This document shows, in pieces, positions 19,343 to 60,499 of a stretch of 64,000 bases of DNA. Within the stretch, counting starts at the first letter, position 1; every line of letters begins with the position of its first letter. Source of the stretch: Cenococcum geophilum 1.58 (lineage: Eukaryota; Ascomycota; Dothideomycetes; Gloniales; Gloniaceae); assembly GCA_001692895.1 (NCBI GenBank), contig KV748230.1, positions 558,001 through 622,000 of the forward strand, written 5' to 3'. The notes below the pieces were generated by a model. That model worked only from the letters and a program-made list of their open reading frames with translations. It was not told where the DNA came from and did not search any database. Made by a program: the position numbers and the translations under genes.

Positions 19343-19619
19343 CTAGAGTAACTCTAAGAAGAAGGCTAATCTATACTCTAAAGCCAAGTCTATTTCTAGA
19401 CTATTTGTAGCATATACATAATAGCTAAAGATCTAATTAATACGCAATAGTTTCCACGCTCCTCTTATAGGTCCGTAATTATACAACTAGTATTACGGCT
19501 TATACTAATACCTCTAAATAGAAGCTTATAGAATGCTGTATTACGGGGACACTAAGCTAAGGAAAAGAAGGAGAAGGATTATTAGGGGTAACAGGTTAAC
19601 ATATCGCGAGGGCCGCCAA

Positions 19620-19690
19620 GGCGCTAGTAGTAAGCAAGCCAATAGCGATTTTCTATCCTGGGGATGGAAAATCCTAATTAGCTAGTTAAA
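19620..19690. repeat. Hairpin module in the 3' region of the younger copia element
   Basis: GGCGCTAGTAGTAAGCAAGC is followed by the inverted pair ATTTTCTATCC / GGATGGAAAAT and CCTAATTAGCTAG. It is homologous to 13,440-13,505 and 33,858-33,925. Confidence 0.75.
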
Positions 19691-19849
19691 TTTAGGGTCC
19701 GCAGAATATGGCGGGTGGCGTGCCCTAGCACTGTTACAACCTGAAAACCACCTTCTATTGCTCCTTACGCTCCACCTAACCTACAGCCTATATATCGACC
19801 TAGTTTATATTAATAAGTCGCTATAGGGCAACGCAAGGCTTCCCCTTAG

Positions 19850-37320: not shown

Positions 37321-37459
37321 TTAGTACCCTAACAAAATAATAATATAGTAGTTATTAACCTATTAGTTTATATATTTATAAAATGGGGTTTAAACTACTT
37401 TAACGCCTAGCTGGTTAAGAATAACCCTATATACGCTACTTTGTTAATTAGTTTTACTA

Positions 37460-38230: not shown

Positions 38231-38529
38231 TAGCTTAGATCTTTTATAGTAAATTATTAATTGCATCTATATAAGAAACCCCTTTAGCTTATACCTTTCT
38301 CTCTTTATATCTTATAACTGCTTAGCTAATACTAGTTATATTAGCCAAATATTTATACCTTTTAATAGTACTAATAGCTCCTAATAGCTCTTATTAGCGC
38401 TGTTAGGAGCTTTAAAAGATACTTATACGTTAGGAAAAAAATTTACCAGCATTTTTGCAGCATTTGGCAGCATTTGGCGGCCAAATGCGCATTCCGCGCA
38501 CTATAACGTGTAGCGTATAGTATTAACTT

Positions 38530-38670
38530 AGGTGCGGTATACTGCTGTACTCAATAATGCGGTGCAGCATACTGCCGCATACTGCTGTATTTAATAATGC
38601 GGTGCAGTATACTGCCGTATTTAATAATATAGTGTAGTATACTGCCGTATTTAACAATACGGTATAGCTA
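38530..38670. repeat. Type-1 end tandem repeats (about 30-35 bp units)
   Basis: Units of GCGGTRYAGYATACTGCCGTATTTAATAAT, about four copies. The same array is expanded to about twelve copies of 30 bp at 59,925-60,290 in inverted orientation. Confidence 0.75.
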
Positions 38671-38850
38671 ATTACGCATTTTACACTTAATGCCCTCCTC
38701 GCGCATTCTATATATAATGCCCTTCTTACACATTCTATATATCTTACTCACTTTAAGCAATAAATATTGCTCTTTTTACGCAGTTAGTGTAAAATAAATT
38801 ATATTATTTTAGATAATTTAATTTAATATAGCGACGGTTCTTTTTTACCT

Positions 38851-39060
38851 ACCTACCTACCTGCCTACCTGCCTGCCTACTTACCTACCTACCTACTTAC
38901 CTACCTGCCTACCTACCTACCTACCTACCTACCTACCTACCTGCCTATCTACCTGCTTACCTACCTGCCTGCCTACCTACCTGTTTATACCTACCTATCT
39001 ATACCTACCTATCTATACCTACCTGTCTATACCTACCTATTTATATCTACGTGTCTATGC
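38851..39060. repeat. (CCTA)n / (CCTG)n microsatellite
   Basis: Nearly continuous CCTA/CCTG/CTTA tetramers to about 38,990, grading into CTACCTATCTATAC-type units. A degraded counterpart is at about 60,530-60,670. Confidence 0.9.
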
Positions 39061-39119
39061 CTACGTATCTATGCTACCTTAATTCAATCAATTAATAGAA
39101 TTATTTACAGTGTTCGCTG

Positions 39120-39235
39120 GCTGGTCGTCTAAACGGTTGTCGTCTAGCCCTAGCAGCGGTCGTCTAGCTCTAGCGACGGTCGTCTAGTTCTAGCGACGGT
39201 TATCTAGTTCTAGCGACAGTCCTCTACTAGCTGCC
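39120..39235. repeat. 20-bp tandem repeat GGTCGTCTAGTTCTAGCGAC
   Basis: About five copies. Related blocks stand at 60,960-61,075 and 61,365-61,450, always upstream of the same leader. Confidence 0.8.
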
Positions 39236-39309
39236 GTTCTGGTGCCTTCCTAGGTAGGGAGGATGTAAGAAAGGAAGAATGGGTAAAAAATAAGGTGGCT
39301 ATATAGGGG

Positions 39310-40056
39310 TATACTTGGCAGAGGCACGTGTAGAGGCTATTGGGAATATAGCGGGGACCCAATACGGAGCTTCGTGTAGAGCCTCCGTACGTAGAGCTTT
39401 GTGTAGAGCCTCTATACGCAGAGCTTCGCGTAGAGCCTTGTGCAGAGCCTCTGTACGTAGAGCTTTATATAGAGCCTTATATAGAGCCTCGTGCAGAGCT
39501 TTATGTAAGAGCTTTGTATAGAGCTTTATATAGAGCTTTGTATAGAGCTTTGTGCAGAGCTTTATACAGAGCTTCGTGCAGAGCTTTGTGCAGAGCTTCG
39601 TGCAGAGCTTTGTGCAGAGCTTCGTGTAGAGCTTCGTGCAGAGCTTCGTGCAGAGCTTTATGCAGAGCTTCGTGTAGAACTTCGTATAGAACTTCGTGCA
39701 GAACTTCGTGCAGAACTTCGTGCAGAGCTTTATATAGAACTTCGTGCAGAGCTTCGTGTAGAACTTCGTGTAGAGCTTCGTGTAGAACTTCGTGTAGAGC
39801 TTTGTATAGAACTTCGTGCAGAGCTTTGTGTAGAACTTCGTATAGAACTTCGTATAGAGCTTTATATAGAACTTTGTGCAGAGCTTTATATAGAGCTTCG
39901 TATAGAGCTTTATATAGAGCTTTATATAGAACTTTGTACAGAGCTTTATATAGAACTTTGTATAGAGTTTTATATAGAGCTTCGTGCGGAGCTTCGTGCG
40001 GAACTTCGTGTGGAACTTTATATAGAACTTTATATAGAACTTTATACGGAGGCATT
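39310..40056. repeat. Leader plus 12-bp minisatellite (about 57 units)
   Basis: The leader ATACTTGGCAGAGGCACGTG...GGGAATATAGCGGGGACC (39,310-39,362) is followed by units such as TGCAGAGCTTCG and TATAGAGCTTTA. Both strands stay open for over 180 codons simply because the unit is a 12-mer lacking stops: RALYRASC-type on plus, KALYEVLH-type on minus. The unit composition is less TpA-rich than the flanks. Confidence 0.88.
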
Positions 40057-40057
40057 T

Positions 40058-40245
40058 TCTAGCATTTAGCAGCTAAATGCTAATACTTAATTATAAATGC
40101 GGTATTTAGCGGCTAAATGCTAGTACTTAGTAATAAATGCTGCATTTAGCTACTAAATGCTAATACTTAATTATAAATGCGGCCTTTAGCGGCTAAATGC
40201 TAGTACTTAGTAATAAATGCCGCATTTAGCTGCTAAATGCTAGGG
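40058..40245. repeat. Type-2 end palindromic tandem repeats, short copy
   Basis: Five units each with a GCATTTAGCNGCTAAATGC hairpin separated by TAGTACTTAGTAATAA-type spacers. Confidence 0.8.
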
Positions 40246-40557
40246 AATGCTAGAAATGCTAGGAAATGCTAAAATGGCAGAAAAGTAAAATTAGATGCTG
40301 GTAAATTTTTTCCTAACGTATTTAGTATTCTATTAGAAACCTTTAGGACCTCTAAAACCTCTAGGGCTATTAGGACTATTAAGACTATTAAAATAATAAT
40401 AAAAATTATAGATTTAAAAATAAAGCATATTAATACTTTAGTATTTATAGCTAGGTAAAAAATATATAATCTAAATAATCTAAAATAATCTTTCCTGCCT
40501 ACTACCTACGTCAGGAAAAAATTTACTAGCATTTAATTTTACTTTTCTGCCATTTTA

Positions 40558-40735
40558 GCATTTTTTAGCATTTCTAGCATTTCCTAGCATTTAGCTGCTA
40601 AATGCCGCATTCAGAATCAAGTGTTAGCATTTAGCTGCTAAATGCTGCAATTAGAATTAAGTATTAGCATTTAGCTACTAAATGCCGCATTTATAATTAA
40701 GTGTTAGTATTTAGCTACTAAGTGCTAACTATAAG
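40558..40735. repeat. Type-2 end palindromic tandem repeats, giant copy
   Basis: Four units with GCATTTAGCTGCTAAATGC hairpins, inverted relative to 40,058-40,245. Confidence 0.8.
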
Positions 40736-40985
40736 ATTACTAAGCATATATAAAAGTATAATTTTTATAATTTTTATATTTTATATACACTTTATTAATA
40801 TTACTAAGCATATATAAATATATAATTTTTATAAATTTAATATTTTATATACGCTTTATTAATATTACTAAGCATATAAAAATATATAATTTTTATAAAT
40901 TTAATATTATTAATAAAAANTTNATATTTTATATTTTATATATATTTTATTAATATTAGTAAGTATANGGGGNNGGGNNGNATTA
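40736..40985. repeat. About 62-bp AT-rich tandem repeat with ambiguous bases
   Basis: Three to four copies of ATTACTAAGCATATATAAA... TATATACGCTTTATTAAT-type units, with N calls at 40,920-40,981. Confidence 0.75.
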
Positions 40986-41199
40986 TAAAAAAATTTACTA
41001 GTATCTTAAATTAGGTTTATGCTAATTAAGTAATTTTAGTATTTAGCCGCATTTAGTTGTATTTTGCGGCTATATACTACACCGCTAATAATAATACTAT
41101 AATTTGCGGCTAAACGCCGCCTTAATAATAAAAGTGCTATAAGCTGCAGCTTAATGCTCTCTTAGAAATAATAATACTAGAAATATTTTAGTTAACTAA

Positions 41200-44100
41200 G
41201 TTTACTATATACGCTACGCTACTACCTATAAGTTACTAGAAGATACGTCCCTTAGCCCACGTATACGCCACTATATAATTATAATAGGTTTCGCTATATA
41301 GCGGCTATATATAGTATTCGGAACTATCTATAGTTATATTATACTCTTATAATCGTTACCAGCATTAGATAGTCTTAGTGTCTTCCTTTTTACCTTAGCC
41401 TACTTTTAAGCTCGAATCGGCCTTCTCCTTATACACCAACTTATACAGTAATAACGTAAATTTAGTTAACTTTAATATTCTTTACTTAATACTCGACTTC
41501 TAATTAGCTATAATAGTACTATAGTAGACGGGCTTAGTCTATCCTTATTAATCTATTTAAGTAAACAGTTACTTTACCTCTAAGAGCTTATGGCTTAGCT
41601 TAACTATAATAGTGTAATTTACGCGCTATAGGTTAATAGACAGCCTAATTAATATAAAGGTATAAAGTAGGATCTACTTAGAGTTATTAGTATTAAAGGT
41701 TTACCTAGCCTCGGCCTTTTTAATATTAGATATGCCGGCTATATAGTGGAGTACCTTATCTTTACTATATTCTTTATATAGCCTATTAAACTAATAAGCT
41801 AGTGTAAGAGGTAAGCAAGTAGTAATAATAATCTTACATACTAAACCATTTGTTCGTTTTTTAATATAAACGTAATTATAGATTTTTTTAGCTTAAAAGA
41901 ACTTTACATTCTATTGAAAATAGTGGTTAAGTATATTAGTAAACTCCTTACTAAGTGGGTTAGTAGTCTACTTAGCGATAATTGGGTCCTTAAGTATGCA
42001 ACTCTAAGTTTTTAGGCGTTTATTATTAGACTCGTTAGACTTATTAGACTTAATTATAATAGGGGTATACTGGTCCTAGTATTAGATAACCTAGGCTACA
42101 CTTACTGCCGTTTTCGCGTTAGTGTATAACTCGGCTTGGGTAAGTTTTAGTATTTCGGGTTTAGTATTTAAATCGCTGCTATCTTCCTCCTATATAGCTA
42201 GAAGTTCCTTATATCGGCGCCTCTACTCTATTCTTACTTAGTCCTCTATAGCTATAATTATAGCCGCCTTAGTATTATTAGGGTCGGCCTATAACGTAAC
42301 TAATTTAAGACAGCTATTCTTTAGGATAAGCTTTTACTGGTTAAACTAGAGTGTTAACTCCCCTCTATATATCTAAAACATTAGAATAACTATGCGGAAA
42401 AATATAGCTAGTTCACCGAATTTCCTATCTACTATTGCTCTGGCTAGGTTAGTCTTTATATCCTTATAGAGACGGTTAAATTTTTTCTTCTTTAGCTAGA
42501 TGTTTTCTTCTTTAAGCTTAAGTAGTACTTTAAACTCCGTTCCCTTTAGCTTATTAGCTTCTTCCTACTTTAGCCTCTTTAATCCTACTATAATAAACCG
42601 TATTAGTTACATTAGGTTTCCGTTATTAGGCGTGCTAGATATACCCTATATAGTAGGGCTATAATTATATATAATACGGTACTTCTTAACCATATCCTTA
42701 ATAAACGATATTAAGACTCTACCGGTTGCGTCTAGGTGGCATTTATCCTAAAGGATATGCCTAACCTATATTGCACTCTTTAATTTCTAATACGTTCTAG
42801 GGGATTAGCTATTTAGATATTTCTATATATTAGTTTATATGGTAATAAACCCGCGTATTAGTTATATAGTAATATAATTTCGCGTAGTAATTAGAAGGAA
42901 TTAGGTTAAGTATTTTAGCGCTAATAGTTCCGTTATATTAGGGGCAGGGCTATAATTATTCTTAAACCTAGCTTTACCCTATAGGTGTAATAGGAGAGCC
43001 TTACTAACTAGATATATATCATTATTATTCTCCTATTATTCCTTATTAGTCTACTTAAGAGCCTTACGGATTTACGGCTATTTATCCTTTTTTAGTTTAC
43101 TAAATATCTTAACTTTATTATAGCTAGGGGTAAGAATTGTAATCTAGGGTAGGTTGGGGCGCTTTATAATCGCGCCATCTTATAACATTGCACTTACGTC
43201 CTTTAGGAATCCTAGTAGGCCCGAGGTTGGCGTAAAAACGACTAAGCAGCCTCGCTGTAGGTCTATAGGGTATAGCTTCTTAGGGTTGTCTTCGCAGTAG
43301 TATATAATTGGCTGCTTTACTACCTATAGGCATTTTAAATCCGGTAGATGTATTTTAGGTAGGTAGTAGGTCATATCCCTAGCAGCTTAGGCCTCTTAAA
43401 CGTTTATTACGTTCTAATAATAAAAGTAGTTCATTAGCTATTAAGTAATTATTTATATAGTCTTGCCCGCGCTAGGTTTGTCTGTACAAATACTGCCTCC
43501 TTTAATTATCCTCTTTTACTTAAATATCTAAGCTATATATACCACTTAGTATAGGCTAAATTTAAAGCCTAATGCAAGGCCCTAATTAGGGAGTTCAATT
43601 AGGGCGGTTTTAGAAAGTGCTTTTAATAAGACAAGTAGGAAATACTCTAAAGTAAGTAGAAGATCCGCCTCCGTTACGTACGCTAGTACGCTATTTAGGT
43701 TATCCTTCCCGGCCTTATAGAGCTAGGCTAAGAAAGTTTACTAGTTAAGTTCTTCCTCTACGTCTATATCTTAGTTATTATTATTAACTAAATTCTTATC
43801 TTAGTTGCTATTATTAACCAAATCCTTATCTTTATCTCCACTCTCTATATCCTTAGAGTTAGTATAATATAGGAACTAATTATCGTATCCACCGGTATAT
43901 TACGGCAATTTGCTGTCCTCTATAGTAATATCTTAAGGGATATTAATAGTTGGTAATGCAGTAATAGGGTCGTCTATTATATTATCAGGCTAGTATATAC
44001 CTTTAGGTTTGGTAATAAATTGCGGCGATTTACCGTTATCTGCGGCAATTTCTCTAGTACCGCTATTACTCGCTAATATAGGCTTATAGGTAGATAGGTT

Positions 44101-45372
44101 ACGTCTTCCCTTTACTAATTACCTTCTACGCATAACTGGCTCGTTATTACTGTTTTCTATAAAGGTACTTACCGCTAATTTTACTTAAGGGCGTTTCCTA
44201 CTTCTATTTAGGTTGGCCTTGCGACTATTTAACTTTTCGGGCGCGGCCGGCTCGCTTTTATTATTCTCCGCTAGGGCACTTATTGCCAATCTTAGTTAAG
44301 GCCACTTATTATATCTGCCCGATTTAGTCTTACTATTATTTAATTTCTTATATCTAATAGGCTCACCCTTACTATCTTTATTAGAGCTATATACTACTAA
44401 TTTTAAATAACTTTACTTCTTACCTTCTTTTAATTTACTCTTACCGCTAACCTTATACGGCGTTAGGACTTACTAGCTGTTTTTTACGCTGCGTCTATTA
44501 CGTCTAGGCGCCTTAGATTTAATAGCTAGCGGTATATTATTAGTGGCAGCGACTTAGGAGTTTAAGCTAGGAGGTAAGAGTAATGCTATAAGCACGGCCT
44601 CCTTTATGCCATTTCGCGCTATTTTGCTAAGAGCTGTAATAAGTGTACCTTCTAACTATATTGTAAGGTTTTTATATCTCCACAGCGATATATAGATATT
44701 CTTTTTAGGCGGACTGTTAATGTTAAGCTCTATATAGGCTCGTAGTTCCTCCTATAGCTTACCTAGAGCTATATATAGGTTTCTACTTATTAGATATAAG
44801 ACTTAGACTACCCTAACTATTAACCTACCCGTTAAGCCTATAAATTAGATTTTAATCTCAATATCTTCTATATTAATTACGTTGCTTACCACTAGGGTTA
44901 CTAGCTAAGGCGAAGGGATACCGTGTAGTAGGGTTATAGTAATATCTATAGGCTATATCGCATATAGCAGCTAAGGTGGCGTTATCTCATCTTATGCTTT
45001 GGTTTTTAGGGGTAATATATATTTACGCAGAGCATGCCCACTCTTAGAGGTACTTAGTACCCTCCTTACGCGATTAGAACGAGCACTTCTTATAATTTTT
45101 AGGATTATCTATAGTTTCTAATCCGGTAAAGCATTAGTAAATTGCAAGAGTTACTTATAAAACTCCTTAATATACCCTTCTTTTATTATTATAGAGTTGC
45201 CGCGATATATTACGTACTTAGGCTTAACTTTAATCGCGATATCTTTAACCTTCTCTTTTAGTCTATTGTAGTTTTTAATGCTTATTCTAAAGCCTTAGGC
45301 AATATCTATATCTTTAGTCGGCTTTAGGTTCGCCTTATACTACGCGTCTAGCTTTGCCTATAGTTGCGTCAT
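41200..45372 (-). pseudogene. SNF2-like ATPase/helicase, RIP-degraded
   Basis: The minus frame starts MTQLQAKLDAQYKANLKPT at 45,372. Near 43,505-43,460 it reads RIIKGGSICTDKPSAGKT, matching the SNF2 motif I pattern KGG(I/L)xxDxxGxGKT, and is followed about 75 residues later by RGCLVVFTPTSGLLGFLKD. Near 41,850-41,700 the C-terminal helicase lobe reads KIIITTCLPLTLAY*FNRLY and KDKVLHYIAGISN. Near 41,650-41,590 it reads LSINL*RVNYTII (motif V-like), and near 41,570-41,530 F T*ID**G*TKPV, the place of the R.NR.GQT motif VI. Fungal SNF2 proteins remodel chromatin or nucleic acids using ATP; here stops and changed residues make it inactive. The N-terminal ~400 residues are not recognised. Confidence 0.65.
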
Positions 45373-45843
45373 TATTAAGTTGCTTATTTGGTTAGGTACG
45401 TGCAATATTACGGCATATATTAAGTAAAAGGTAACTATTAAAGTAAAAGGGCTTTATACGGTAGCTGGCTAGCGCTATATTAGTATAACTTTAGTATTAG
45501 ACGTAGTTAGAGGTTAGTTATAGAAGAGATAGAAGGTAGAGTAAGTAAAGTTAATTAAGAAGAGGTAAAGAGGTAGATCTTGTAATTACCCGCACGTGCC
45601 CATATAGAGGTAAAATTGGCTATAATTTACTACTACTAGTTAAAGTAAATACGGCTAGACTTGGTACTATATAGTTAAATAAGGGTATAATTATATAACT
45701 TATAGGGACTACCTTACCTAGCCTGTTTAGGGCTAGGTGGTAGTTTAGTACCGCTAAACTCTTATAGTTTTTAATATAAGCGATTTATTAAGTGCCTGTA
45801 AAGGGGTAACTAATTATTATAGCATAGTAGACTATAGAAGGTT

Positions 45844-46169
45844 ATAGGCGTTACTATATTTCTTATTATTATATGGAGTTAGTATATATGCGCGCCGCTA
45901 GAGTTAGAGGGCTAGCCTGCGTTTATATATGCAGGCTCTATCGCTATAAAGTATTTGCTATATAATAGGTAGTATTTTTAGTAGATAGTAACGTATTGCA
46001 CTTATTATAGGCGTTACTATATTTCTTATTATTGTATAAAGTCGGTAGATATACGCGCTACTAAAGTTAGAGGGCTAGCCTACGTTTATATATACGGACT
46101 CTATTACTGCGAAGTGCTTAGTATATAATAGGTAGTACTTCTAGTAAATAGTAACGTATTACACTTACT
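45844..46169. repeat. Tandem duplication, two units of 163 bp
   Basis: ATAGGCGTTACTATATTTCT begins at 45,844 and again at 46,007. Both contain GAGGGCTAGCCTRCGTTTAT and end CTTATT/CTTACTT. Located between the divergent SNF2-like and SF1-like coding blocks, in the position of a shared promoter region. Confidence 0.8.
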
Positions 46170-46849
46170 TTATAATTGCTAGTGTTATTATTATACTGTA
46201 TAGCACTTAAGGGCCTACTAAATAAGTTTATCCGGAATAATAATTATCTAGTATATAGGATTTACGTCTGTGTATAAATATCTAGTGCTTATTTAAACGC
46301 ATATCTACCGCAAAAGGTAGTAGGAGGTTTTATATCTTATATTATAAGTTTATATAATTAATGGCATTTTATAGCATTTTGCGGCATTTTAGGGTATTTT
46401 AGGATAGTAGATATATTATATATACTAGTATCCAGCCGCTTAGCAACGTTAACTTATCTTACTATTTATCTATTTAGTATTATATAAGAGGTTAGTATTC
46501 TACTATAGTATTTATTATATTAAAGTCTCTTAAATTTAATATCTTTATTTTAGATCTGTCTAAAACTATATATAGTTTTATAATATCCCGCTCCCTACCT
46601 AGTACTCTAGTAAGAGATTATTTAGTTAATAATGCCTTTTCTCTTACTAATTAAGGGAGGAAAAGACTTATACTTTCTAGTAGTGGTAGGCTATACTTAT
46701 TAGTAATATTTTTAACGGATTATAGTGTTTAAGTTTCCGTTTACCTATAATGTAATTAGCCTGCCTATAGTAAAGTGCTTTTGCTTTACTACTCGCTTCT
46801 CTTTTCCCTTACCCTTCTATATATTTATATACTCGCATTATAAACTATA

Positions 46850-49800
46850 AGAGCTTAATAGTGCTAGATTATCGCCTGGCCTATATTAAGAGATAGGCTA
46901 AGTAGGGTAGTCCCCGTAACTTACACTATACCGCGTCTTCCTCTATAGGTTGGTCTTATTACTATAGATTTACCCTTATACGCGTTTAACCTATAGAGTG
47001 TATAACCATATACTTTACCGCCAAGGCCTTACTTATATAATTTTATTAGGGCGCGCCTTATTTCCTTACCTTTACTAGTTAACCTAACTTTACTAACTAC
47101 CTACCCTTACTCCTACCCTACTAGCATCTACCTCTATAACTAGTACCTCTATAGATCTATCTAAGCTATAAAGCCTTATAATATAGTAAGTTAGCTGCCT
47201 TATCTTTAGCCTTAGCTATATAATAGAGGGTTTGTATTTACTAATGCGTTTACATAGACTACTACTTAATATAGCCTACTACCAAAATAGACCTACCCAC
47301 TAATTATTTTATAACTCGCGATGTTAACTACATCTATGACCATAAAAAGTTCGCTAAAGGCGTTATAGTTTTTAAGATTGCCTTAACTGTAGTAACTATA
47401 GGCTCTAGTGTCTCGTAAGGTAATAGTAAGGGCCCTGCGCTTAATGAGCCTTTTCTTTTAAAGCTTAGCAGTCTATACCTCTTAGCTAATAACGCTCTAA
47501 AATACTATCTCTGTTTATTTACCGGCCATATACGCGCCGATTGTCCTCTTAAGAAAGCCTCTTAACTTTATTATAGCTGTGGTGAGGCCGGTTATCTTAA
47601 AGCTAACTACCCTAACCCTATATATAATAATTATAGGAAAGCCGGTCATCTTAAGAGTAACTATCCTAGTATAACGTGTAACTAATATAGTGCTATAGGC
47701 TATAGAAAGCGAGACTGTCCCTAGCTATTAGGTAAGAAGAAGTAAACTTACCTAAACTATAGCTCCCTAGACTATTAAACTGTCTTTTATAGTTAAGTAT
47801 ATAAGAACTATAGAGTTATAGGGTATAATATTAATGATTATATAAGTAGACCTACTTCGATTTAGGTAATAGACGCCGTAACCGCTCTAGCAAGGTAGAT
47901 ATACTAGGTGCTGCCGCTTTAAGTATAGCTGCTACCTCTTTATTGCCTAAACCTCTCGATATAGCCGGCTTCTATCTAGTAGTAGATGGCCTAGTAGATA
48001 ATCTAGACACCTACGTAGAGGATAGCGATTCCGTAATGGCCGAACCTTTAGATATACTCTAGCTTCCAAATAACGACCACCTTATAGTTTAGTTTGTTAT
48101 ATAAATTATTAAAGAGTATATTATAGTATATAGTATTACATTTTAGGTGTCTTACAAGACTAGTAAAATGCCTACTTATTGTTTATATAAGATGGCGTCT
48201 ATCCAATTCACGGATGCCAACATCGCCGGCGACGTTAAGGTTAACACTACTAATGCTGCTTCTCTAGTTACTTAACGACTATTACGTCTAACCACGCTTA
48301 AATATCTTACTCACATTCTCCTACAAGATGCTATAACTCTACGACTTTACTATATTAGGTTCGTTATTGCCTCTAACAAACTTACACTAGATACGCGTAC
48401 GTTGCTTAGTAAGTACTTCTTTATTAATAGGGACCTTGGCCTATTTACGCCGCAAATCTATAAAGCTTAGGATATGCTATTAAATAGTCCTATGGTTATT
48501 ATCTACTTCTTTATACTAGGCACTAAATAGCTTAATAGTTATATCGCGAGCCTAAACGCGAGCCTATAATAACAGAGCGTTAATAATCCTTTAGGTTGCT
48601 AGTGGAAGAACTATAATATAAATATCTAGCTTGGTATATAGCTCTTAGTAAAGAACCAACCATCGTATAAAATCCCCGCGAGGTATTAGTTTAATAGCGT
48701 TCTTAAGTATTTTACGGTCTAGTTCTATACCATAATCACAAGCCTTAAGGCCGTTAATTAGAACCCCTAGGTACCCACTATTATTTATCTTATTACCTTT
48801 CTAGGTGGCGCGGACTAAGTCTACTACGCTACTATCTAAATAGTTAATAGTCTTACCCTTTATACCGACTCTATTATTAATATCTTATTCCTAAATAAAG
48901 ACGCAGATAGCTAGGCTAGCTAAAAAGGAGTTATTATTAATACTACTCCCTTTAGCTCCAGCTATAACTACTATACTTTTATCTTTTAACTATAGGTGGG
49001 TTATAAGTTTATACTAAACCCTATATTTGCTCCGGAGCATATTTTAAGCAGCAATAACTTTATAATAGTTAGTAACCTAAATAAGGCCCTAATTACGGCA
49101 TAGGGTATTAAATGTCTTATAACTAAGTATATCCCTAAGGTTAGAATCTCCTAAGAGATTAACACTCTACGCCACCTATAGTAAGGAGGTAATAGTTTCT
49201 ATATTAAGCGCTAAATTATATTATCCAACAACTTTATAGATCTCCCGCGTATTAATTACTTTAACTGCAATATTACTAAGTATAGGAAGAACTTAGTCGA
49301 TAATGCCCTTAAGGCTATTTTATTATTATTTAACGAAGAGTAAACAGGTGCCTATACTGCGCTTAAATATATAATAGGCGGTATTTTGCTAATATAAGGC
49401 CCCGGTGGTGTTAGGAAATTAACCTTCCTAACTATTTTAGTACAATACCAGTATTAACTTAGGTTGCTTTAGTAGGATCCTGCTAGAATCTAGGTCCTAT
49501 TACCGCTTAATCGCCAACTAGATATACTAGCTAAGATAATTAATAATACGCTTATAGAGGACTATAAGGCACTAATTACATAAGGCCGTCCCGCTAAATT
49601 TCCTATTATCCTTTACCGCTATATACACTTAACGGAAACTAAGGTCTATAAATAGGATGCCGTTATACAGCGAATAGCGGTAGGTATTAATACTTGTCCT
49701 AAGTATTTTAAGGAATAGGATAACTATACTACGATTGACGAGGACGCGTCTATGCTAAATATAGCATTCCTACTCTACCGTACGTTTAAGGCTAGTAATG

Positions 49801-51360
49801 CCACTAACTTTAATAAGCGGTTGTAGGTTATAGATTTGTCTAAAGGTTAGTAGTTATTACGCCTTATAGGTGTCCTAGATAGCAACGGAAACCTATATCC
49901 TATTATAGACCCTAATATAACTAAATACGCCAAATTCCGCTAATACTTGTACTAATTTGCGCTTAGTAATAATATAACGCAAGATAATAAGATGGGATTA
50001 ATACTTGTAGCTAATATAGTTATTATAAACCTGGCTAAGAAGGCTAATGTTATTTTTATAATACCTAATATAGTCTTACAGACTTATATATATTCTATTA
50101 GCGCTATACGCGCAGTTTTCTATAATAAGGCTAGGAAGGTGTTTAAGCTAAGCAGTTTTGCTAGGTTTGCCTAGAGTAGACCATATTTAATCTAAGGAGG
50201 TCTATAGATCTAGGCTGGCGACCCCATGCCTTAGGTTTTCCTTAGTGATATATACTAACTAAAACTAATCCTTAGTCCTAATTTTGATAATCCGTTCTAC
50301 TATTAGAAATCTATCTCCCTCTATACGCGTCTCCTCGCGGCTAGTGCGGATATAGTATAGTTCTCGCTATAATATTAATTTGTTAAAGATATTATATATT
50401 TTATAAATACCGTCCTACTATACGGCCAGCTTTAAATAAGCCTAATAGTTAAGAACTAAGAGCAGTTAAAGCTAGCGGCGAGCTTTTTTAAGGATATACT
50501 GCGCTATAACCACCCTATTGCCTTCCTTGCCGTTAATAGTACTATATAGGTAAATAAGCTTAGCTAATTAACGTATAACCTAGTCCACGCTTAACGCGTA
50601 TTTTAGGTAGCTATAGCGCTAATAGACTTTGGATTTAAGCTATTAGAGGTTGGCCTTGCTGTTCCATATATAGCCTAACTTACCGTCTACTCCGTAGCGC
50701 TATATACGCTTAAAGAATAGTACTACGCCTAGTAAGATGGCAGCAAGTGGCGGGAATTTGCGCTAGTAGTTAGCGAGATTAAGGTCTTTACTATTAACGG
50801 TATCTAAGGCGGCTAGGTAGAGTTATTAGTGTATAATATAATAGTTACTAGTCTACTAAATTTTATTTAGGACACGGCAAGGAACCTTCTTATAATTACT
50901 AGACTATAAGCGGGCCTTATTATTATTAGTAGTCCCTAAGTAGTCTATAATTATTATACTAGCGATAAGATCTTTATAAATACCGCGTATTATAAAATTA
51001 AGAAGTGGTGTAAGGATAATAAGGTATTTATTAACCTTAAGAATTTTAAGCGGAAAGAGCACTTCTAGTAACTTATCGCCCTATTTAATATTAATGAAAC
51101 TATATAGCGTATCTACCGCTAGCGTACAGCCGATTATATACCCATTTTATATAGTATAGACGTTAACTTTAATATTACTATCCCTAACTTCGCGGGTGTA
51201 GTAAATATTAGCGGCACTAGTAATTATATTAAAGCGTAGAATAAGGCTAATAGAGAAGGCGCCAATAATAATGGCTGGGGCGGTGCCGGTAATAATAACG
51301 AGGATAACGATAATGGAGAGGATGTTAGTGGCGTTAAAATATAAGGAGGGTAGTAAGGAT
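46850..51360 (+). pseudogene. SF1 (UPF1-like) helicase with four upstream CCHC zinc knuckles, RIP-degraded
   Basis: Zinc knuckles at about 47,500-47,740 in one frame: YLCLFTGHIRADC, YYSCGEAGYLKANY, YNNYRKAGHLKSNY and CN*YSAIGYRKRDC. Each fits C-x2-C-x4-H-x4-C with some Cys/His now Tyr. A second frame opens at ATG 48,192 (MASIQFTDANIAGDVKVN). Near 49,397-49,423 it reads *GPGGVRKLT; reverting two RIP-type changes gives a Walker A of GPGGVGKST form. Later blocks fit superfamily 1: VGLAVPYIA*LTVY (about 50,650-50,690), FTINGI*GG*VELLVYN (about 50,790-50,835) and ARNLLIITRL*AGLIIIS (about 50,880-50,932), matching motifs IV, V and VI of UPF1-type helicases. The tail is Gly/Asn-rich. The DEAD-box-like motif II is not clear. 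Zinc knuckles and helicase may be one spliced or two separate proteins. Confidence 0.65.
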
Positions 51361-51399
51361 AGATGTTATAGACTTTATTAGTAGCGAGACCCTTAAATA

Positions 51400-52140
51400 G
51401 GGACACTAGATAGAAGTTAAGAGCGGTAATAGCTATAGGCCTTTAATATTTATAATTTTGCTATAGTACTAGGTAAAATACGGTATATTATAATATTATA
51501 TATTATAGCTAAATAAGATCTCTAAAATAGATAAGCGCATTATAGTGAAAATAGCCCAATTTATAAAGCCTAGTAATCCTAGTTTCTATCCCTTTTAGGC
51601 TAGTGGTTAATTAATACTAATCTATAATCCAGATTTTAAGGGGTTATTTAGTTATAATTTATTACTTTTAAATCTAAACTAAAAGTCTGGTAGAAAGAAC
51701 GCGTTCCTTTTTAATTTAATACGCGTCTATAGCTCTATAGGTTATATAGACGTATATAATCTAAAGCCTTTAAATTTAATCTAGAGTTTAAATAAGGAGC
51801 TTTAAGCTTCTGATTTAAACTGACGCTAAGACCTTAGTTTAGATTCTGTATATAGTAAAGTTACTAACTTTTTAGTAACTTTTAGCGTGTTTTTTAGAAC
51901 ATTAAAAATTTATAGCTAAAGTTAAGTTAAACTAGAATTTAACCAAATAATCGCCTTAGAATTAGATTAGAGCTCTAGATTAACTCTATTCTAAAGCCCT
52001 TATTCTAATTTAAACTTATAACTAAATATTCCCTAAGTACTTAACTAGTTAGATTGTAGTCTAGATATCTTGCTAGTAACCGCAACTATTATTAATTACT
52101 CTCCGTATAGTATAGGCCGCCTCTATTTTTACTAAACTAT
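51400..52140. other. RIPped spacer, no gene seen
   Basis: AT-rich, with repeated TCTARTTTAAAC-like words between 51,640 and 52,010. No protein-like frame found. Confidence 0.45.
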
Positions 52141-52149
52141 AATAACCTT

Positions 52150-53440
52150 AAATAGGATCTAATCCTTTTCTTGCTATAGCTGCTGCTAAGGCAACATAAC
52201 CTAACACCCTCTTCTGCTTATATTAGGTATGCTATTCCTAGTATTAGTACACTATTACTATATCTTAAGAAACTTGTCGCTAATGCTATAGGCCCTTAGA
52301 ATAATACCTGTCCTACTATACTAGCTACTAGCTAGTAAAACATAGAACAAATATAATATCTATATAGTTACCCCTAATAAAAGAGCCTGTAGTAAAGGTA
52401 ATTCACTATACTACGTCTGGATAACCTAAGATTATATATATAGGCAATAATTTTAGGGCTTCCTAGTGCAATAGGAGGTCTCGCTATAAGGCAAACTTGA
52501 CTAAAGTTACTATCTCCACATAGATTAGATTAGCTATAATTAATTAATACCTTCTAGCCCGCCTAGTGAAATGTATTACGCTAGAGATAGGGCTAGATAA
52601 ATATTAGCAATATATTATAATTACGACGGATACCTATATACTATCTCTACAGATAGCCGTAAATATAACCTGGTCTATCCTATAATAAACTGCCCTTAAT
52701 AAAGCAGCCCTTAAGGCCCTATTGTTTTAGATAGGCATAGTCTCTATATAGGCGGCCTATATCTACTCCTTATTATAATTTACCCCGGCCTCTAAAAACA
52801 TCTTAACTAGCAGCTAATATTTAACTGTGCGTAGGTCTTAAGGCGCATTAGATAGCAACACTAGACTTAAGGCCACGTCTATACTTAGGACTAAGTTTAT
52901 ACTATCTAGTTTCCGCTTATAAAGTAGTATAACGAGTCATTTAAGATTATAGCCGCAGTTCTGTATATAGTTAAGCTAGGATAAACTCTACAAGTTTACG
53001 GCAGCCATATACCCCCTTTTTACATCCACTATATAGTTAATGCCAGGCTGCCCTAGCATCTTTATTTTCTTACGCATATTTAACTATACGCGGGCTAGTA
53101 TATTCTATATAGCCTTGTGTACCTATAGCGCTAGTGCCTTCTTATATTTTACTACCTAACGAATAACTTTCTAAATCGCCTGCTCGCGTAGCGAATTATT
53201 TAGTTATCCGCGAAATAAAATGTATAGGATGCCGTCCTTAATAATAACCTGCTTAAAAGTCCGCTTAGTAGTATTAAGTCTCTTTACAGTAATGCCTAAG
53301 CCAGTAATAAGCTGTATATCTTTTTACGGGTCGATAGCGCTCGCAGAGTTATACTACGCCGTATTTACGGCATACCGCTATTGTATATTGCGTCTCATTA
53401 TAAAAAATAGTTTAGTATCCTAAGTAGGGAATAGTAGTAT
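52150..53440 (-). pseudogene. Unrecognised protein remnant of about 430 codons
   Basis: One minus-strand frame stays aligned from about 53,440 to 52,150, interrupted almost only by TAA/TAG (presumed CAA/CAG). Readable pieces are KDIQLITGLGITVKRLNTTK, KMLGQPGINYIVDVKRGYMA and ARRY*LIIANLIYVEIVTLV. There is no frameshift in the visible stretch. No family recognised. It is convergent with the SF1-like gene and divergent from the Plavaka transposase. Confidence 0.5.
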
Positions 53441-53819
53441 TTAGAATCCTGTGCTTAGTATAACAGAAAGGCGGCGCGATATTAGTAATAAGTAGAGTCT
53501 CCTAGCCTAACGTAACGTAATTTAGCGTAAATTAGCGCAAAACGCAACGGGTTGCGCTATTTAGCGCGTTAGTATCTATGGACATCGCTATACTCTTACT
53601 ATACTCCTCCTATTTTAACTGGCTTATAACGTAGTATAAGCTATAAATACTACTTTAAACATACAGTTCTACACAGATATTGTTTTTAGCTCCCTTCTAA
53701 CTAAACTATAGCAAATTATAGCTTAATATGGCAATTTACAAATAAGCTCTATCTAGCGGTAATATGGAAAGTATAGGACTAAAGTAAAAAGTATAGGCGG
53801 TCTAACCCGTTATAAATAA

Positions 53820-56800
53820 TATTATTTAAGATAATAGAAATGGAAGAAGGGTAGATATAAGGGCGTTAATATTAAAGAGACAAATAATAATACACCCTTA
53901 CGCCATTAAAGCTTAGAGGAGTATTAGATAGCCTATTATAAGGCCGAGCTAGAGCAATATAATAAGTGGCCACTTATATAATATATAGACGACGATGCAC
54001 TATTATACTATTAAACCTTAGAAGGGTATTATACAACTAATTATAAGGCCGAATTAGAGTAAGGTAATAAGTGGCCACCTATATAAGCTTTAGGCGATAA
54101 TATTGTTAATAAGCCAAATAATAGGGCTGCGGATGTGCACTATAATAATAATTCCGTAATATTTAATAGGGTATATAACCTAGTAATAGTTAAGACTAAT
54201 TAGTAAACTTTAACTAGAATATCTATAGACGTCTTTTGGACTAAAATATTTAAAGAGGCTACTAACCGCGCTATGGGAAAGCCTCTAGGACGGAACTAAG
54301 GAAATCTGTAAACTGTGGACAATACTATAGCAGTATGCAACATTATACCGCGTATTAAGCGTACAGGTAGTGCACTAAATAAGATACCTCCCCCGTTTTA
54401 TTTATTTGGCAGTAAGGTAGAATACATATAGGTCTTATAGTAGGTAAGCCATAGGACTTCTAACCGCGCTATTAACAAGTAGTTTAATAATATTAGGCTT
54501 TAGGGAGTATTTACTAACCATTTTTCTTACTAGAGTGCTAATAATGTTAAAGCAAAACTACTTTTAAAACAGATATAATCTAAGAGTAATTAACTATAGT
54601 GGATTAAAATAATTATAACCGTAGGGGATTAGCAGCTGCTAGTACGTTACCGAGATGCTCTAGAGATTATATCCTTCCTTATTAGTTACGGCCCTTTCTA
54701 AGGAGATATAACTTTCTCGCCAGTAAGGTAGTACTTATTAGTAGGAATAAGAATATATAATAAGCTTAATATAGTAGACTAGTGGTAGGAAACGTAAGAG
54801 TAGCTACCGCTTAGCGCAACTGTAGTGCCGATTATATTAACTAGCGATAAGACCTAACTAATATAATATGCCGGCGGCAAGAAAGCATAGCCGCTTTATA
54901 TTTTAATTAGAAATATTAAACTACGTATTTAACAATCTATAAATTAACTAGCCCTATTACTACTTATATACCTCCTAGTCTATATACCTAGCAACCGAAT
55001 AATATAACTAGCGGTATAATATAAGACCCTTACGGCTATCCTTAAACATATACTTTAGCAATAACCCTACTACTAGTATAGTTATACTAATAATGCCTAT
55101 AGCGTTAGAGAAAGCTAGTAAAGAAGAAGTACGTCTCCTATACGCGGATGGCTAAGATTAATACTACTTTTTACTTCTAGCTATATTTATAGCTGATTAT
55201 AAAGAATAGGTTACGCTTATAGGTATTAAGAGTGGCCGTAAATATTTAACTTATTATATATATACAAATAAACGGTATAATCTAATAACTGCTATCTAGT
55301 GACTGTGGCCGTTCTGTATATACTAATTAATAAAAGACTAAATATAAATGTAGTAGGAAGGTTGCGATACTAATAAGAAGGATAACTTAGATTATATTTA
55401 GTTGTTCCGTAACTTTATATAGGGCTATAATCTATCTAATATCTATAAGATAATAGCGCCTGATTTCCTACACTAGGTGCTTAAAGGCCTCACTAGTAAA
55501 TATCTTATATATTGGATTAAGGGGCTTATATAAAGCGAAATATAGGCCAGAAAATATTAGGGCCTTAATATCCCGCGTATAGATAGTTGCGGCTAGGAGA
55601 TGTTAAATATTAATGCACTTATTACCACCTGCTTTATATAGGTGGAACAATTTACGAATATAATAGTATAGGATAGCTAGGTAAATGTCGGCTAATAGAC
55701 AGGAAAGATATATAAATCTCTATTATAACAATTGGTCCCTATTATAGTACCCTTACTAAAACAAAATAAAGGCACTATGCTATTTATCCGGGCGTTTATA
55801 GACTTTACTATACTATCTTAATATATATTACACGATGAATTAACTATTTAGTACTTAGTAGCAGCTATTTATAGAATGGATAAGATAAAGGATATATTTC
55901 TTTTATTTTAACTAAGTAAGGTAGGACTACCACACTTTAATATTCCTAAGCTATATACTATTACCTACTATCTAAAGAGTATTTAGTGACTAGGAGTAAT
56001 TAGAGGTATAAATATAAAGTATTTAGAGCAAGCATATAAGCTATAAAAGGCATTCTACTATAGGACTAATAAACGGAATAACTATAAAGAGTAGATGCTA
56101 TAATATAATATTATATATCTTAATACTATGCTTTAAAACGAACTTAAGCTATAGGCGTCGACTAATATAATTAATATAGTAGACCTAATAAGCGCAATAT
56201 AGACAATATAACTAGGCCTTATAGTTAATATATATGTACATTACTTGTATATATAGAACTTTAACGACTATATAACTTAGACACTTTAAGACTAGAGAAT
56301 TAATATATCTATCTAGCGTATAGTTAAGGAGGTATAGCGCTAAATAAAGATTACTAACCTTATATCTAAACTAGCCCCCTTTATAAGGGAATGCTGTAAG
56401 TAGATTAATAGAATCTGGCGAATAGACTAGGACGTTAACCAACTAAAGGCCGATAATAATTAGGTATTAAAAATGCCCTTAAGTATCTATTACAGCGTTA
56501 TATACTATATTTGCTTTAAGAAAGATACTACTAACACTAATAAGCTTAATAAGGTGTTTACTTAATATACCCTATTATAGGCTAATACTAGAGCCCCCTA
56601 CTATAATACTGTAATAGTGCAAGAATATAAGCGGGTAAATAATAGCCTCCATAGTAATAAAGTAGGGAGGCTTTATCTACTACTTACAATTTAGGATACT
56701 AGGTAATTAGATAATAAGGGCAAATACCTAAAATACGCTAGTGCGTTAGTAGAGACCCTCTAAGTTTACGATAGTAGTAAGATTAATATAAGAACCGGAA

Positions 56801-57130
56801 TGCTTAGAGTGTAGAGTATAAAGCTATTTAACAGCAGGACGAAACGTACGCTAGATGCCCTCTAGATATATAATATTAACTATATTATAAGGCCTATTTT
56901 ACTTATACTAACGGACATTAACGTTATAGACTATTTCTTTATAAATAACTATAGCGATTAGGATATATATAATACTATATATAACGAAGATTTTAAACAA
57001 ATAAATAGGGTATAGGTTAATGCATATATAAGGAAATAGGCTCGCACTAGGCGGTAAATAAATATAACTTAGCCGAAATAGTAGTAAGTTGCGACTAGCG
57101 GCGCCGGATTGTAATAAAGGGGTAGATTGC
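53820..57130 (+). pseudogene. Plavaka-type DNA transposase, RIP-degraded
   Basis: Conserved blocks of fungal Plavaka transposases appear in order on the plus strand. D*W*ETQ (54,779-54,800) corresponds to the GDWWWETQ block, with Trp codons turned to stops. It is followed by LPLSATVVPIILTSDKT*LI and YAGGKKA*PLY (to about 54,900). DG*D*YYFLLLAIFIADYKE*VTLIGI (quoted in parts: FLLLAIFIADYKE) lies near 55,150-55,220, then CITPD-like APDFLH*VLKGL near 55,457-55,492, and a C-terminal region to about 57,130. An internal ~105-bp duplication near 53,935-54,090 repeats YKAELE*.NKWP. The presumed start is ATG 53,840. Catalytic residues cannot all be placed. Confidence 0.75.
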
Positions 57131-57149
57131 CGCAACTATAATAAACTAA

Positions 57150-59500
57150 AATATAACACTACTACGTATCGCCCTCTACGCGCTAGCTACCCTTTATATC
57201 CTATATACTATACTATCTACCTTAAGAGTAGGTAAATATTGTAAGGAACTAGGCTTCTATATAGTATAGAAAAAATATTATATAAAGTAGGACCTTATGC
57301 TATAGTAAGGCAATCTAATTGCCCTATTATAAAGCCTAATAAATAGTTAGGCCGCCCTCCTAACTTATTATTATAAGTTTATTAAAGCTCCTTTCTATAT
57401 ACTTGGCGAGAAATGCCTAATTTATATTATAAAAGTTAACTAGGTTATTATTTAAAATATATTAGGTATAAGACTCTAAACTATCTAGCGTTTTCTAGGG
57501 AAGTAAGGTATATATAAAAGCTAAATAGTTTTACTAAACTAATATACTTATCCTCTACTTATCCCATAGAAAAGTAAATAAAGACGCTATAAATTAAGTA
57601 GTAGCTCCTAAGATAATCTAGATCTTAAAGGGAATAATATTAGGCTCTATACCGTAACTATCTCCATTAAAAGGTAAGGCTGTTATTAATGTACTATAGT
57701 ACGACCTATTATTGTTAATTTTAATAACGTTATCCTAATAGATAGTCCTATTCTTATTAAACAAAAGCCTATAAACCCTAAGTAACCGCAAAATATCCGA
57801 AACCTATACTTGAAAGAAACGTATATATTACTTAAATAAATAACCGCTATAGGATAACTTTAGACGACGTATAAAGCAGCCACTTAGCCTAGTTAATATA
57901 ATAATATACAGTATTGCTTAGATACGTCTTATTATATAAGTAATAATAGGCTCTATACCTAAAGAGCTCTATTTTTTTCCCTAGCCGGAAATAAATATAA
58001 GCGGTCTAAATACACTAATAAAGCAGACGTGAAAGAGGTAATTACTATTATAAACTGTTACAAAAACCTAATAAATAGAGCATTAAGTATGCTACTAGGG
58101 CCGGCGGCACGCAAGGTTCGCGGTCCTTAGATTTAGTAGCACTATACTAACTAATTTTCTAGCTATACGACTAGCTTAGCGTATTTTAGTATTATATAAT
58201 AAATATAGTACATAATACCGTTGCCGGGAGCTATAATTGCCTTAAACTAGATACTAAGGCTATAGTAGAGAAAGTAGCGGAACTACTTAAGGATAACCGC
58301 TTTACGCTTAGTGGCCTAGTTAGTACTCTACCTTTTACTATACCTAACTAACTAAGGCTAGGATAGAGAGATAAGATTTAGGGCGCTAATTATTACACGT
58401 TATATTAAGCGCGTATTCTTTAATACTAGGCTAAGGTTACTTACCCTTAATAAGAATAGTACTAACCTCTTTTTACCTATTATAGCTAATATAATATAGC
58501 TTATATACATAGCGATTTAATATACTTTTAAGGACTATAGAAGTAGAATATAAGTTATTTATAAGTTTAAAGCCAACGCTATAATTATAGGTAAATCTAT
58601 AGAAAGCCTCTTACTATACTTACTAAAGCGTATTATAGATAGTTAGGAGCAACTATAAAATACCTAGAAAAGCTACTAACCTAAGCGTAATAAAAGGCTA
58701 TATAGGCTACTTTTATAATAAGTTAATAAGATATAGAATATAACTAGAGATAAGATGCTATAGACTTAGTAGGCAATTAATAATCCGTTTAAGGATATTA
58801 TAGAAAATCTAGAGGAACTAGATCCTAAGTATAATAATAGGTTTACTTAATAACCGTATACTATAAGTGTAAATATATAATATTATATTAATTATATCGC
58901 AACGTTATATCGCAATACTCGCTATATACTATAGCACTTTACCGCCGTTTCCTATATTATAATATTATACTATTTTAATTATTATATACGGGCTAATAAA
59001 GATAATATAATAGGACAACGGTAGCCTAGTGTATTTATTATAAAGAATAAACCCTAAAACTATATATAAGGTCTCCTTTTCGCAGTATATTAATAAGACG
59101 ATTTTAATACTATATAACTATAATATTAACGCTATCTAAGCGCGCCTTAAATAAATTTAAGGTAATAATAAATAGGAAACAGGAATTAATCACCGTATTT
59201 TATAGTATACTTTTACTAGTAAGTCTAAAGTTATAGATATTACGGATAGTGCTATATTAGAGGATATAAAGGCCCGCCTATAGAGTAGAGATAAACTAGT
59301 AATACTAGAATTTGCTAATAAAGAGGATAAGAGTAAAAAAGGTAGCAGAATAGATAGGGAAAATAACGGTGATAAAGAGGATAAGATTAGAGAAGGCAGC
59401 GGGATAAATAGGGAAAATAATAGTAAAAATAATGGCGAGAATAAAGACAGTTAGGGGTTTAATAGTATAATACTACTATTATGGCGGGACTTATATAAAT
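57150..59500 (+). pseudogene. Second coding-like stretch downstream of the Plavaka transposase
   Basis: Readable plus-strand pieces include GPAARKVRGP*I**HYTN near 58,099-58,150 and an acidic/basic tail near 59,300-59,440 with repeated EDK(I/S)(R/K)xGSGI-like units. No known domain recognised. It may be the C-terminal part of the transposase ORF or a separate accessory protein of the same element. Confidence 0.4.
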
Positions 59501-59624
59501 ATTAAACTTAAAATAGCAGGTTAACTAAAGGGCGTTATTAGGCGTATTAAGGCTATATTATACTACTATTAGGTTAAAATATATTCTTTATATAGTATAT
59601 ATTAGGCATATAAAATAAATAAAA

Positions 59625-59785
59625 AACACTAACTGTATAGAATAAGTAAAGGGTACTAACTGCGTAGAATAAGTAAAGGGTACTAACTGCGCAGACTAAG
59701 TAAAGTATATTAATTACGCGAAATAGGTAAATACTATTAACCGCGCAGACTAAGCAAATACTATTAAGTGCGTAGGAAGAGCAAC
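59625..59785. repeat. 29-bp tandem repeat at the type-1 end
   Basis: About six units of ACTAACTGCGYAGAATAAGTAAAGGGT and variants. Only one unit equivalent survives in the short copy near 38,770-38,800. Confidence 0.7.
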
Positions 59786-59924
59786 GCTTATCTATTACTT
59801 AAAGTAAGTAAGATATATAGAATGCGTAAGGGGGGTATTATATATTAATTATATATTAAGTGTAAAGAGAGCTTAATAGAATAAAGGCATTATTTACCTA
59901 AGTAGCTATAAATACGCAATTAGC

Positions 59925-60300
59925 TGTACCGCGTTATTAGATATAGTAATATACTACACCACGTTATTAGATACGGCAGTATACTTACACCGCGTTACTA
60001 AATACGGCAGTATACTATACCGTGTTATTAGATACGGCAGAATGCTATACCGCGTTATTAGATACGGCAGAATGCTATACCACGTTATTAAATGCGGCAG
60101 AATGCTGTATTACGTTGTTAGATGCGGCAGAATGCTATACCACGTTATTAAATGCGGCAGTATACTTACACCGCGTTGCTAGATGCGGCAGTATGCTGCA
60201 CTGCGTTATTAAATGCGGCAGTATACTATATCGCGTTATTAAATGCGGCAGTATGCTGCACCGCGTTATTAGATACGGCAGTATACCGCACCTAAGTCGA
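59925..60300. repeat. 30-bp tandem repeat at the type-1 end (about 12 units)
   Basis: Units of CGCGTTATTAGATACGGCAG plus TATACTACAC, the inverted and expanded form of 38,530-38,670. A 106-codon plus-strand frame across it has exact 10-residue periodicity and is a repeat artefact. Confidence 0.85.
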
Positions 60301-60499
60301 TACTATACGCTACACGTTACAGTACGCGGATTGCGTATTTAGCCGCCAAATGCCGCCAAATGCTGCGAAAATGCTGGTAAATTTTTTCCTGACGTATATC
60401 TATTAGAAGAGCTCTATAATTATTTAAGAATTAGGTAATTAATTAAGAAGCCTTATATAGAGACTTTAAATTACTAATTAGTGGTATTTCTAATAATCT

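Follow-up and report, generated by a model that had tools for sequence, protein, structure and literature searches.

Plavaka transposons are among the closest described relatives of the element analyzed here, a giant DNA transposon at positions 40509-60394 of a 64,000-nucleotide stretch of the Cenococcum geophilum 1.58 genome (the window; contig KV748230.1, positions 558,001 to 622,000). The genome comprises 177.19 Mb in 162 contigs, numbered C1, C2, and so on in this work, and the window is C55:558001-622000. In the accessible text of Kojima 2025 (PMC12730594), PlavakaA and PlavakaB are fungal, belong to the CMCT clade, and have short inverted ends, TGT..ACA in PlavakaA and CATCA..TGATG in PlavakaB, with target duplications of 2 bp and of 2 or 3 bp, respectively. 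TET/JBP dioxygenases as partners of Plavaka are the subject of that article, and the term "SNF2" is absent from its main text as available. The window element resembles both groups in its PF18759 transposase, short inverted ends, and 2-bp duplications. Its end, CGTCA..TGACG, has one mismatch in five positions to that of PlavakaB and does not match the PlavakaA ends. Unlike the described PlavakaA and PlavakaB, it spans 19.9 kb, has a DUF6532 gene, and appears to carry an SNF2 gene and an SF1 (superfamily 1) helicase gene.

Other DNA transposons are known to carry helicases. The available part of PMC3627910 cites an SNF2 helicase for Inton and Enton and a RecQ helicase for Academ, and helicases of AcademH, KolobokH, and Helitron are named in PMC10799480, in whose accessible sections Plavaka is not mentioned. 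Inton, Enton, Academ, AcademH, and KolobokH thus have a helicase or SNF2 gene beside the transposase, as in the window element. However, these are other transposon groups, and the accessible text of PMC3627910 names one helicase type each for Inton, Enton, and Academ, whereas the window element appears to have two. The X3X3R8 repeat of Stagonospora nodorum is, like the window element, a RIP-degraded repeat (repeat-induced point mutation) with SNF2/Rad5-like helicase genes, but the part of PMC3017866 available describes it as a duplicated host gene cluster and mentions no ends or transposase, both of which the window element has. Plavaka and DUF6532 are found together among the domains of two Ganoderma species in the accessible text of PMC8955403.

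Among the papers listed by our literature searches, none pairs Plavaka with SNF2. Starships are giant mobile elements of fungi that carry cargo genes and have a DUF3435 tyrosine recombinase and other end structures. The window element is like them in size class and cargo, but has a Plavaka gene and inverted ends instead. DUF3435 was absent from the six-frame Pfam matches of the window copy, in scans that missed both helicases too.

As read from its sequence, the element is a Plavaka-group DNA transposon of very large size, and our results support a gene set, before RIP, of an SNF2-type ATPase, a zinc-knuckle SF1 helicase, a Plavaka transposase, and a DUF6532 protein. We consider it probable that this is a giant, RIP-inactivated Plavaka-group transposon whose gene set had the roles in transposition proposed below.

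Ends, copies, and inactivation of the element

Positions 40509-60394 form a single 19,886-bp DNA transposon with inverted ends. The original prediction had proposed inverted termini of about 26 bp flanked by TA, and this was borne out, as 27 of 28 positions pair between 40507-40534 and 60369-60396, with 19,834 bp between them and TA on both sides of the window copy. The 18-nt terminus CGTYAGGAAAAAATTTAC has 588 matches in the genome (301 + 287) with two or fewer mismatches, compared to 11 (3 + 8) for the reversed control. Thirteen terminus pairs, two of them in the window, were chosen by eye from among the matches listed. Judged from the flanks of these inserted copies, the 2-bp target duplication of Plavaka is present in 11 of the 13 pairs (TA in eight, and TC, TT, and CT in one each), and the flanks are unequal in the other two (TA/AA on C11 and TG/TA in the pair s2). 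Since three pairs have non-TA flanks, TA is a preferred target that lies outside the transposon end proper. The end consensus in the pairs read is CGTYAGG..CCTRACG.

The search with the terminus for complete copies of about 20 kb, which had been suggested as a check, found three beyond the window, with the same content, order, and spacing: C11:360479-380326 (19,848 bp), C13:454670-474490 (19,821 bp), and C10:950439-972018 (21,580 bp). They are collinear with the window element at about 89% identity, and the C10 copy is longer due to insertions, one of which is 1,708 bp. The six copy pairs differ by 1,901-2,008 transitions vs 28-74 transversions over 19,444-19,712 positions compared. Such nearly transition-only differences suggest that the copies were almost identical until RIP mutated each one. 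The RIP indices of the element are 1.68 for TpA/ApT and 0.40 for (CpA+TpG)/(ApC+GpT), and A follows at 895 of the 1,749 C/T columns in the four-copy alignment. To judge by these patterns, the element underwent a young expansion, each copy was afterwards mutated independently by RIP, and the copies examined are inactivated by it. Dozens of mutated copies of the ~20-kb element are evidently present in the genome.

The blocks of the element were also searched for genome-wide by DNA. The best 40 of 78-95 candidates were scored in each search, so absences carry little meaning. Among the SF1-block places, SNF2 was found upstream within 45 kb at 36 of 40, both SNF2 and a downstream Plavaka at 27, and neither at four; the SNF2 places in this count were pooled from the DNA block search and the SNF2 match listing. 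A same-strand partner on the wrong side was seen at none of the 40, while an opposite-strand SNF2 and an opposite-strand Plavaka were each seen at two. The SNF2-block places, the window's included, had a same-strand downstream Plavaka within 45 kb in 28 of 40 cases, 12 of these at 12.3-12.9 kb. At 12 of the 40 there was no Plavaka block among the matches listed, and one other arrangement was observed. The collinear whole copies and the fixed block order support the proposal of one mobile unit that holds SNF2-like and UPF1-like helicases together with Plavaka.

Two findings would have spoken for unrelated insertions instead. One is a terminus pair that has Plavaka and lacks the helicases. None was seen among the 13 pairs; nine are helicase-free, and only their ends are common with the 20-kb element in the comparisons made, namely blastn for seven of the nine, self-blast for the window's, and tblastn for five (C2, C4, C1, the 9.1-kb C10 pair, and the window's). 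The other is a separate set of inverted repeats around each block. Within the full copies, the terminus pattern is confined to the ends, except that the C11 copy has one degenerate match close to its left end; other end types were not searched for systematically.

The helicase-free pair of the window is a small element in the orientation opposite to the giant one and 190 bp away from it. It has eight related pairs elsewhere. Four of these measure 1.8-2.1 kb, and the remaining four are larger and contain other DNA too (C2, 19.4 kb; C4, 10.4 kb; C1, 6.8 kb; C10, 9.1 kb). LTR-like (long terminal repeat) direct repeats lie inside the C2 and C10 pairs, and none were found in C4 or C1 by the same blast test. 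The 9.1-kb C10 pair has no long blastn match to the giant element, and the C1 pair shares a 1.7-kb insertion with the full C10 copy. We considered these four pairs as variant large elements and rejected them, as only ends are shared and blast groups them with the ~2-kb elements. Separately, the minisatellites of the small element consist of a 12-bp unit at 39391-40043 and a TACC array at 38846-39039, and related repeats occur at 7404-7696 and, in the right flank, at 60525-61576.

Genes within the element

The predicted plus-strand Plavaka transposase was confirmed by matches to PF18759 in two frames, at 54633-54977 (E 6e-16) and 55105-55518 (E 2.5e-8), with a frame change at about 55,050-55,100 that is probably an intron. 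The profile also matched in the C10 copy, and the scores in the two copies were 59, 34, 52.5, and 35.3 bits against a cut-off of 26.3. Downstream of Plavaka sits a DUF6532 gene overlooked in the original prediction, as PF20149 matched the C13 copy with E 1.7e-6 and 28.5 bits (cut-off 24). Only these two genes passed curated profile cut-offs in the family of the window element. A minus-strand ORF (open reading frame) predicted at about 51.3-53.5 kb could not be substantiated, with no six-frame family match in the window or C10 copy. Scanning the window copy against Pfam in six frames, which missed both helicases too, showed no TET/JBP, and a genome-wide profile search with Tet_JBP gave no match anywhere, which does not prove absence.

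The original prediction also placed an SNF2-like ATPase on the minus strand and an SF1 helicase with CCHC knuckles on the plus strand. The motifs of both can be read in a four-copy translation, in which stops were read as X. For SNF2, motif I reads GG..AD(E/K)P.AGKT and motif II D(E/K)CH, followed by (S/G)TPNN, motif V, and motif VI as R.DR.GQTKPV, where the bracketed letters include readings taken as RIP changes. The motifs I, II, III, V, and VI were thus found in order, together with SNF2 homology. Against a profile made from three host SNF2 proteins, the SNF2 frame scored 51.4 (null 32.8, standard deviation 3.8, z 4.9, 30 shuffles), and the remaining five frames had z of -0.4 to 2.3. Column shuffles reached the score in 0/300 cases for the N-lobe and 4/300 for the C-lobe. 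Another SNF2 repeat of this genome, L063, aligned to the SNF2 frame with 110.2 vs a null of 50.3 (standard deviation 5.3, 20 shuffles), and the other frames were at most two standard deviations from the null. PF00271 matched one of three copies scanned (C10), with E 0.0032 and below the cut-off. The stretch 41239-45189 has a net length that is a multiple of 3 in all four copies.

For the SF1 helicase, the four-copy reading gives a Walker A motif, a DEA-type motif II, GD.QL.P as motif III, and motifs V and VI, as in UPF1-like proteins. A host UPF1-like protein aligned to this block with a score of 93.2 and an alignment end at about 50943, and none of 150 shuffles reached that score (null 60.3, standard deviation 6.6, maximum 88.8). 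PF13087 matched the C10 copy below the cut-off (E 0.0052, profile positions 3-193 of 195) and did not match the window copy. The knuckle row gave only weak profile matches, PF00098 with E 0.77 and PF21890 with E 0.014. PDB and NCBIfam searches with the SF1 helicase were negative. The predicted 163-bp duplication between the helicase blocks is real and gap-free in all four full copies. Overall, several independent and individually modest tests agree, which supports the two helicase identities.

A PF13087 match with stops on C75 (L064, C75:371700-372700) was examined as another element and rejected, having only two places, the other of which is host-like. L064 is RIP-damaged and related (77%) to a UPF1-like helicase gene, apparently of the host, at C18:2139352-2140134, which is without stops.

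The features are listed in Table 1. Two more features lie elsewhere in the window. Positions 10050-11234 are an un-RIPped island (GC 0.46) with a membrane transport gene (PF03547, E 5.9e-26), which is likely an ordinary host gene, and 37457-38233 is an imperfect palindrome of about 780 bp that is 70% identical to its reverse complement.

Table 1. Coordinates of the giant element, its predicted genes, and the neighboring small element in the window
Feature	Position	Strand	Basis or remark
Left target duplication copy (TA)	40507..40508	.	2-bp flank
Left terminal inverted repeat, CGTCAGG...	40509..40534	+	End pairing
Left subterminal arrays	40551..40725	+	Short repeats 40551-40592; 40-bp repeats 40585-40725
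64-bp array, next to left subterminal arrays	40732-40908		
SNF2-type ATPase gene, RIP-damaged	41239..45189	-	Approximate extent; four-copy translation reading, profile and alignment tests
SNF2 motifs	I 43459-43500; II (DECH-like) 42736-42747; III 42616-42639; V 41629-41652; VI 41527-41559	-	Approximate, by hand
Tandem duplication of 163 bp, flanked by the divergent helicase genes	45842..46167	.	83% identity
CCHC zinc-knuckle row, upstream of SF1 core	47500..47725	+	Four-copy reading
UPF1-like SF1 helicase core, RIP-damaged	49302..51299	+	Four-copy reading, host-protein alignment, weak profile
SF1 motifs	I 49398-49421; II 50124-50135; III 50241-50268; V/VI 50790-50960	+	Approximate, by hand
Plavaka transposase gene	54369..57045	+	PF18759; tblastn to less damaged C30 Plavaka
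DUF6532 (PF20149) domain	58365..58580 (approximate)	+	Mapped from C13 copy
Right subterminal arrays, 27-bp and 30-bp repeats	59611..60314	+	
Right terminal inverted repeat	60369..60394	-	End pairing
Right target duplication copy (TA)	60395..60396	.	2-bp flank
Non-autonomous element of ~1.9 kb, same ends, both subterminal array types, minisatellite interior	38428..40318	-	TA each side

Recurrence of the gene set

L063 (C46:278700-280200) is a second SNF2 repeat, with a PF00176 match at E 9.1e-5 and 22.1 bits vs a cut-off of 24.9; one copy, at C4:5283598, passes the cut-off together with its neighbors. The genome holds 16 long copies. Plavaka lies within 25 kb of nine of them, always divergent and in six cases at 11.3-11.4 kb, and DUF6532 lies at 5.1 kb in four of the 16. 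This comparison covered SNF2, Plavaka, and DUF6532. tblastn does not join L063 to the SNF2 genes of the window family (best E about 0.2, in the motif I region). That SNF2 and Plavaka are divergently placed and about equally far apart in two families not joined by tblastn of their SNF2 genes argues against chance capture.

On its own contig and in the same orientation, each long copy of L063 is accompanied by a partial copy that spans the first ~610-625 bases at 75-80% identity. The distance from start to start is 6-9.5 kb for 15 of them and 12.4 kb for one, as if the SNF2 gene had been duplicated.

DUF6532 was also found close to Plavaka across the genome. PF20149 has 76 places, and 56 of these have a Plavaka place within 30 kb, out of 163 Plavaka places pooled from the profile search and the DNA block search. 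The chance figure of about 4/76 presumes evenly distributed places and is an underestimate wherever repeats are clustered. A better argument is the fixed spacing: in 22 cases DUF6532 lies 4-5 kb downstream of Plavaka on its strand, in 22 they are on opposite strands at 16-17 kb, and 12 are arranged otherwise. All eight DUF6532 places less than 8 kb from a Plavaka of the window's family are on the same strand at about 4 kb. As a control, two of 38 intact SNF2 places were within 30 kb of Plavaka. Because of this tight linkage in two different arrangements, DUF6532 may be a general Plavaka partner. Taken together, the recurrent linkages look like a gene set rather than a single chance capture.

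RIP-damaged PF00176 repeats on C75, C71, C36, C100, and other contigs had no Plavaka within 30 kb among the matches listed. These repeats are possibly another SNF2-bearing element.

Proposed roles, rival explanations, and significance

In the mechanism we favor, the Plavaka transposase would cut at the CGTCAGG ends and insert at 2-bp targets, mostly TA, presumably by cut-and-paste. The SNF2 protein could open or move nucleosomes on the silenced, repeat-heavy element so that the ends are reached and paired across 20 kb, and the SF1 helicase might aid strand processing or resolution at excision or integration. The ~2-kb elements, in which no genes were detected, could be mobilized in trans, as suggested by their shared ends and target duplications. 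We further propose, tentatively and at somewhat less than an even chance, that giant Plavaka elements of this fungus are a distinct class with a conserved multi-gene machine, in which an SNF2 remodeller accompanies Plavaka and DUF6532 in at least two families, and SF1 in the window's, as the element's own system for chromatin opening and DNA processing. The division of labor would then be comparable with that of multi-protein bacterial transposons, here in a eukaryote.

Several results weigh against the favored explanation of the element. The six-frame Pfam scan of the window copy detected Plavaka alone and neither helicase, which shows that such scans are insensitive. PF00176 was unmatched in the window element's family, whether in the window copy, in other copies, or in the genome scan, and genome scans with PF00176 and PF13087 gave no signal at the known places of this family. 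All three alignments to single host SNF2 proteins were at noise level. hhalign of the RIP-damaged alignments to single host proteins was uninformative, with a probability below 1% in 4/4 comparisons. Profiles built from the damaged copies (A1-A3) gave only two weak and irrelevant matches in PDB, NCBIfam and PHROGs searches gave none, and a regular-expression motif search of the four copies also had no match. The 56 SNF2 matches listed (55 of 162 candidates scored) all contain stops, 22-67 in each except for a 39-residue piece with three. With no intact SNF2 copy among the matches listed, no activity can be demonstrated. In addition, among 23 places with a RIP-damaged PF00176, a listed Plavaka was within 30 kb in only four cases. 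The 24 kb around the less damaged C30 Plavaka showed no helicase in a test that could have overlooked one, so helicases may not be universal partners.

The result around the C30 Plavaka also fits, as a weak test, the rival that deserves the most attention, in which the helicases are passenger cargo: genes of host type, once captured, that merely travel with the element or benefit the host and take no part in transposition, while the transposase and ends suffice for movement. Most DNA transposons require ends and transposase alone, and large fungal elements commonly capture genes. Passenger cargo does not readily account for the strongly diverged SNF2 of the second family in the same divergent arrangement with Plavaka, for the linkage of DUF6532 to Plavaka in two arrangements, or for the SNF2 stretch, whose net lengths are all multiples of 3 in four copies, and we consider it unlikely, though worth keeping in mind. 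Nested or adjacent unrelated insertions could mimic one element in a region this rich in repeats, and the other 7-19 kb terminus pairs are indeed enlarged relatives of the ~2-kb elements. However, content, order, and spacing are the same in the four whole copies and recur at many other places, with differences that are nearly all transitions, making such a coincidence very improbable.

Given that a RIP-degraded cluster with SNF2-like helicases has been described (PMC3017866, in its accessible text), the repeat might instead be a duplicated host gene cluster hit by RIP, like X3X3R8. The terminal inverted repeats, the 2-bp duplications at independent sites, and the transposase gene inside all argue against a host origin, as does the presence of stops in every one of the 56 SNF2 matches in the capped list, and we give this explanation hardly any weight. 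The size of about 20 kb and the inverted ends would also suit a virus-like or polinton-type element with an incidental Plavaka-like gene. That idea is scarcely credible with Plavaka as the only six-frame Pfam match of the window copy, in scans that also missed the helicases, with a 2-bp duplication, and with Plavaka, DUF6532, and weak helicase and zinc-finger matches in parts of other copies. A match to PF12415, a poxvirus polymerase family, covered 18 residues at a sub-threshold E of 0.064 and was taken as chance.

If the remodeller and the helicase of this Plavaka transposon serve transposition, it would be a eukaryotic DNA transposon that brings chromatin remodelling to silenced DNA. This would parallel the known case of transposon-borne TET/JBP enzymes. 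DUF6532 gains a genomic context, and elements of this kind may explain large RIP-degraded helicase repeats that could otherwise be mistaken for duplicated host genes.

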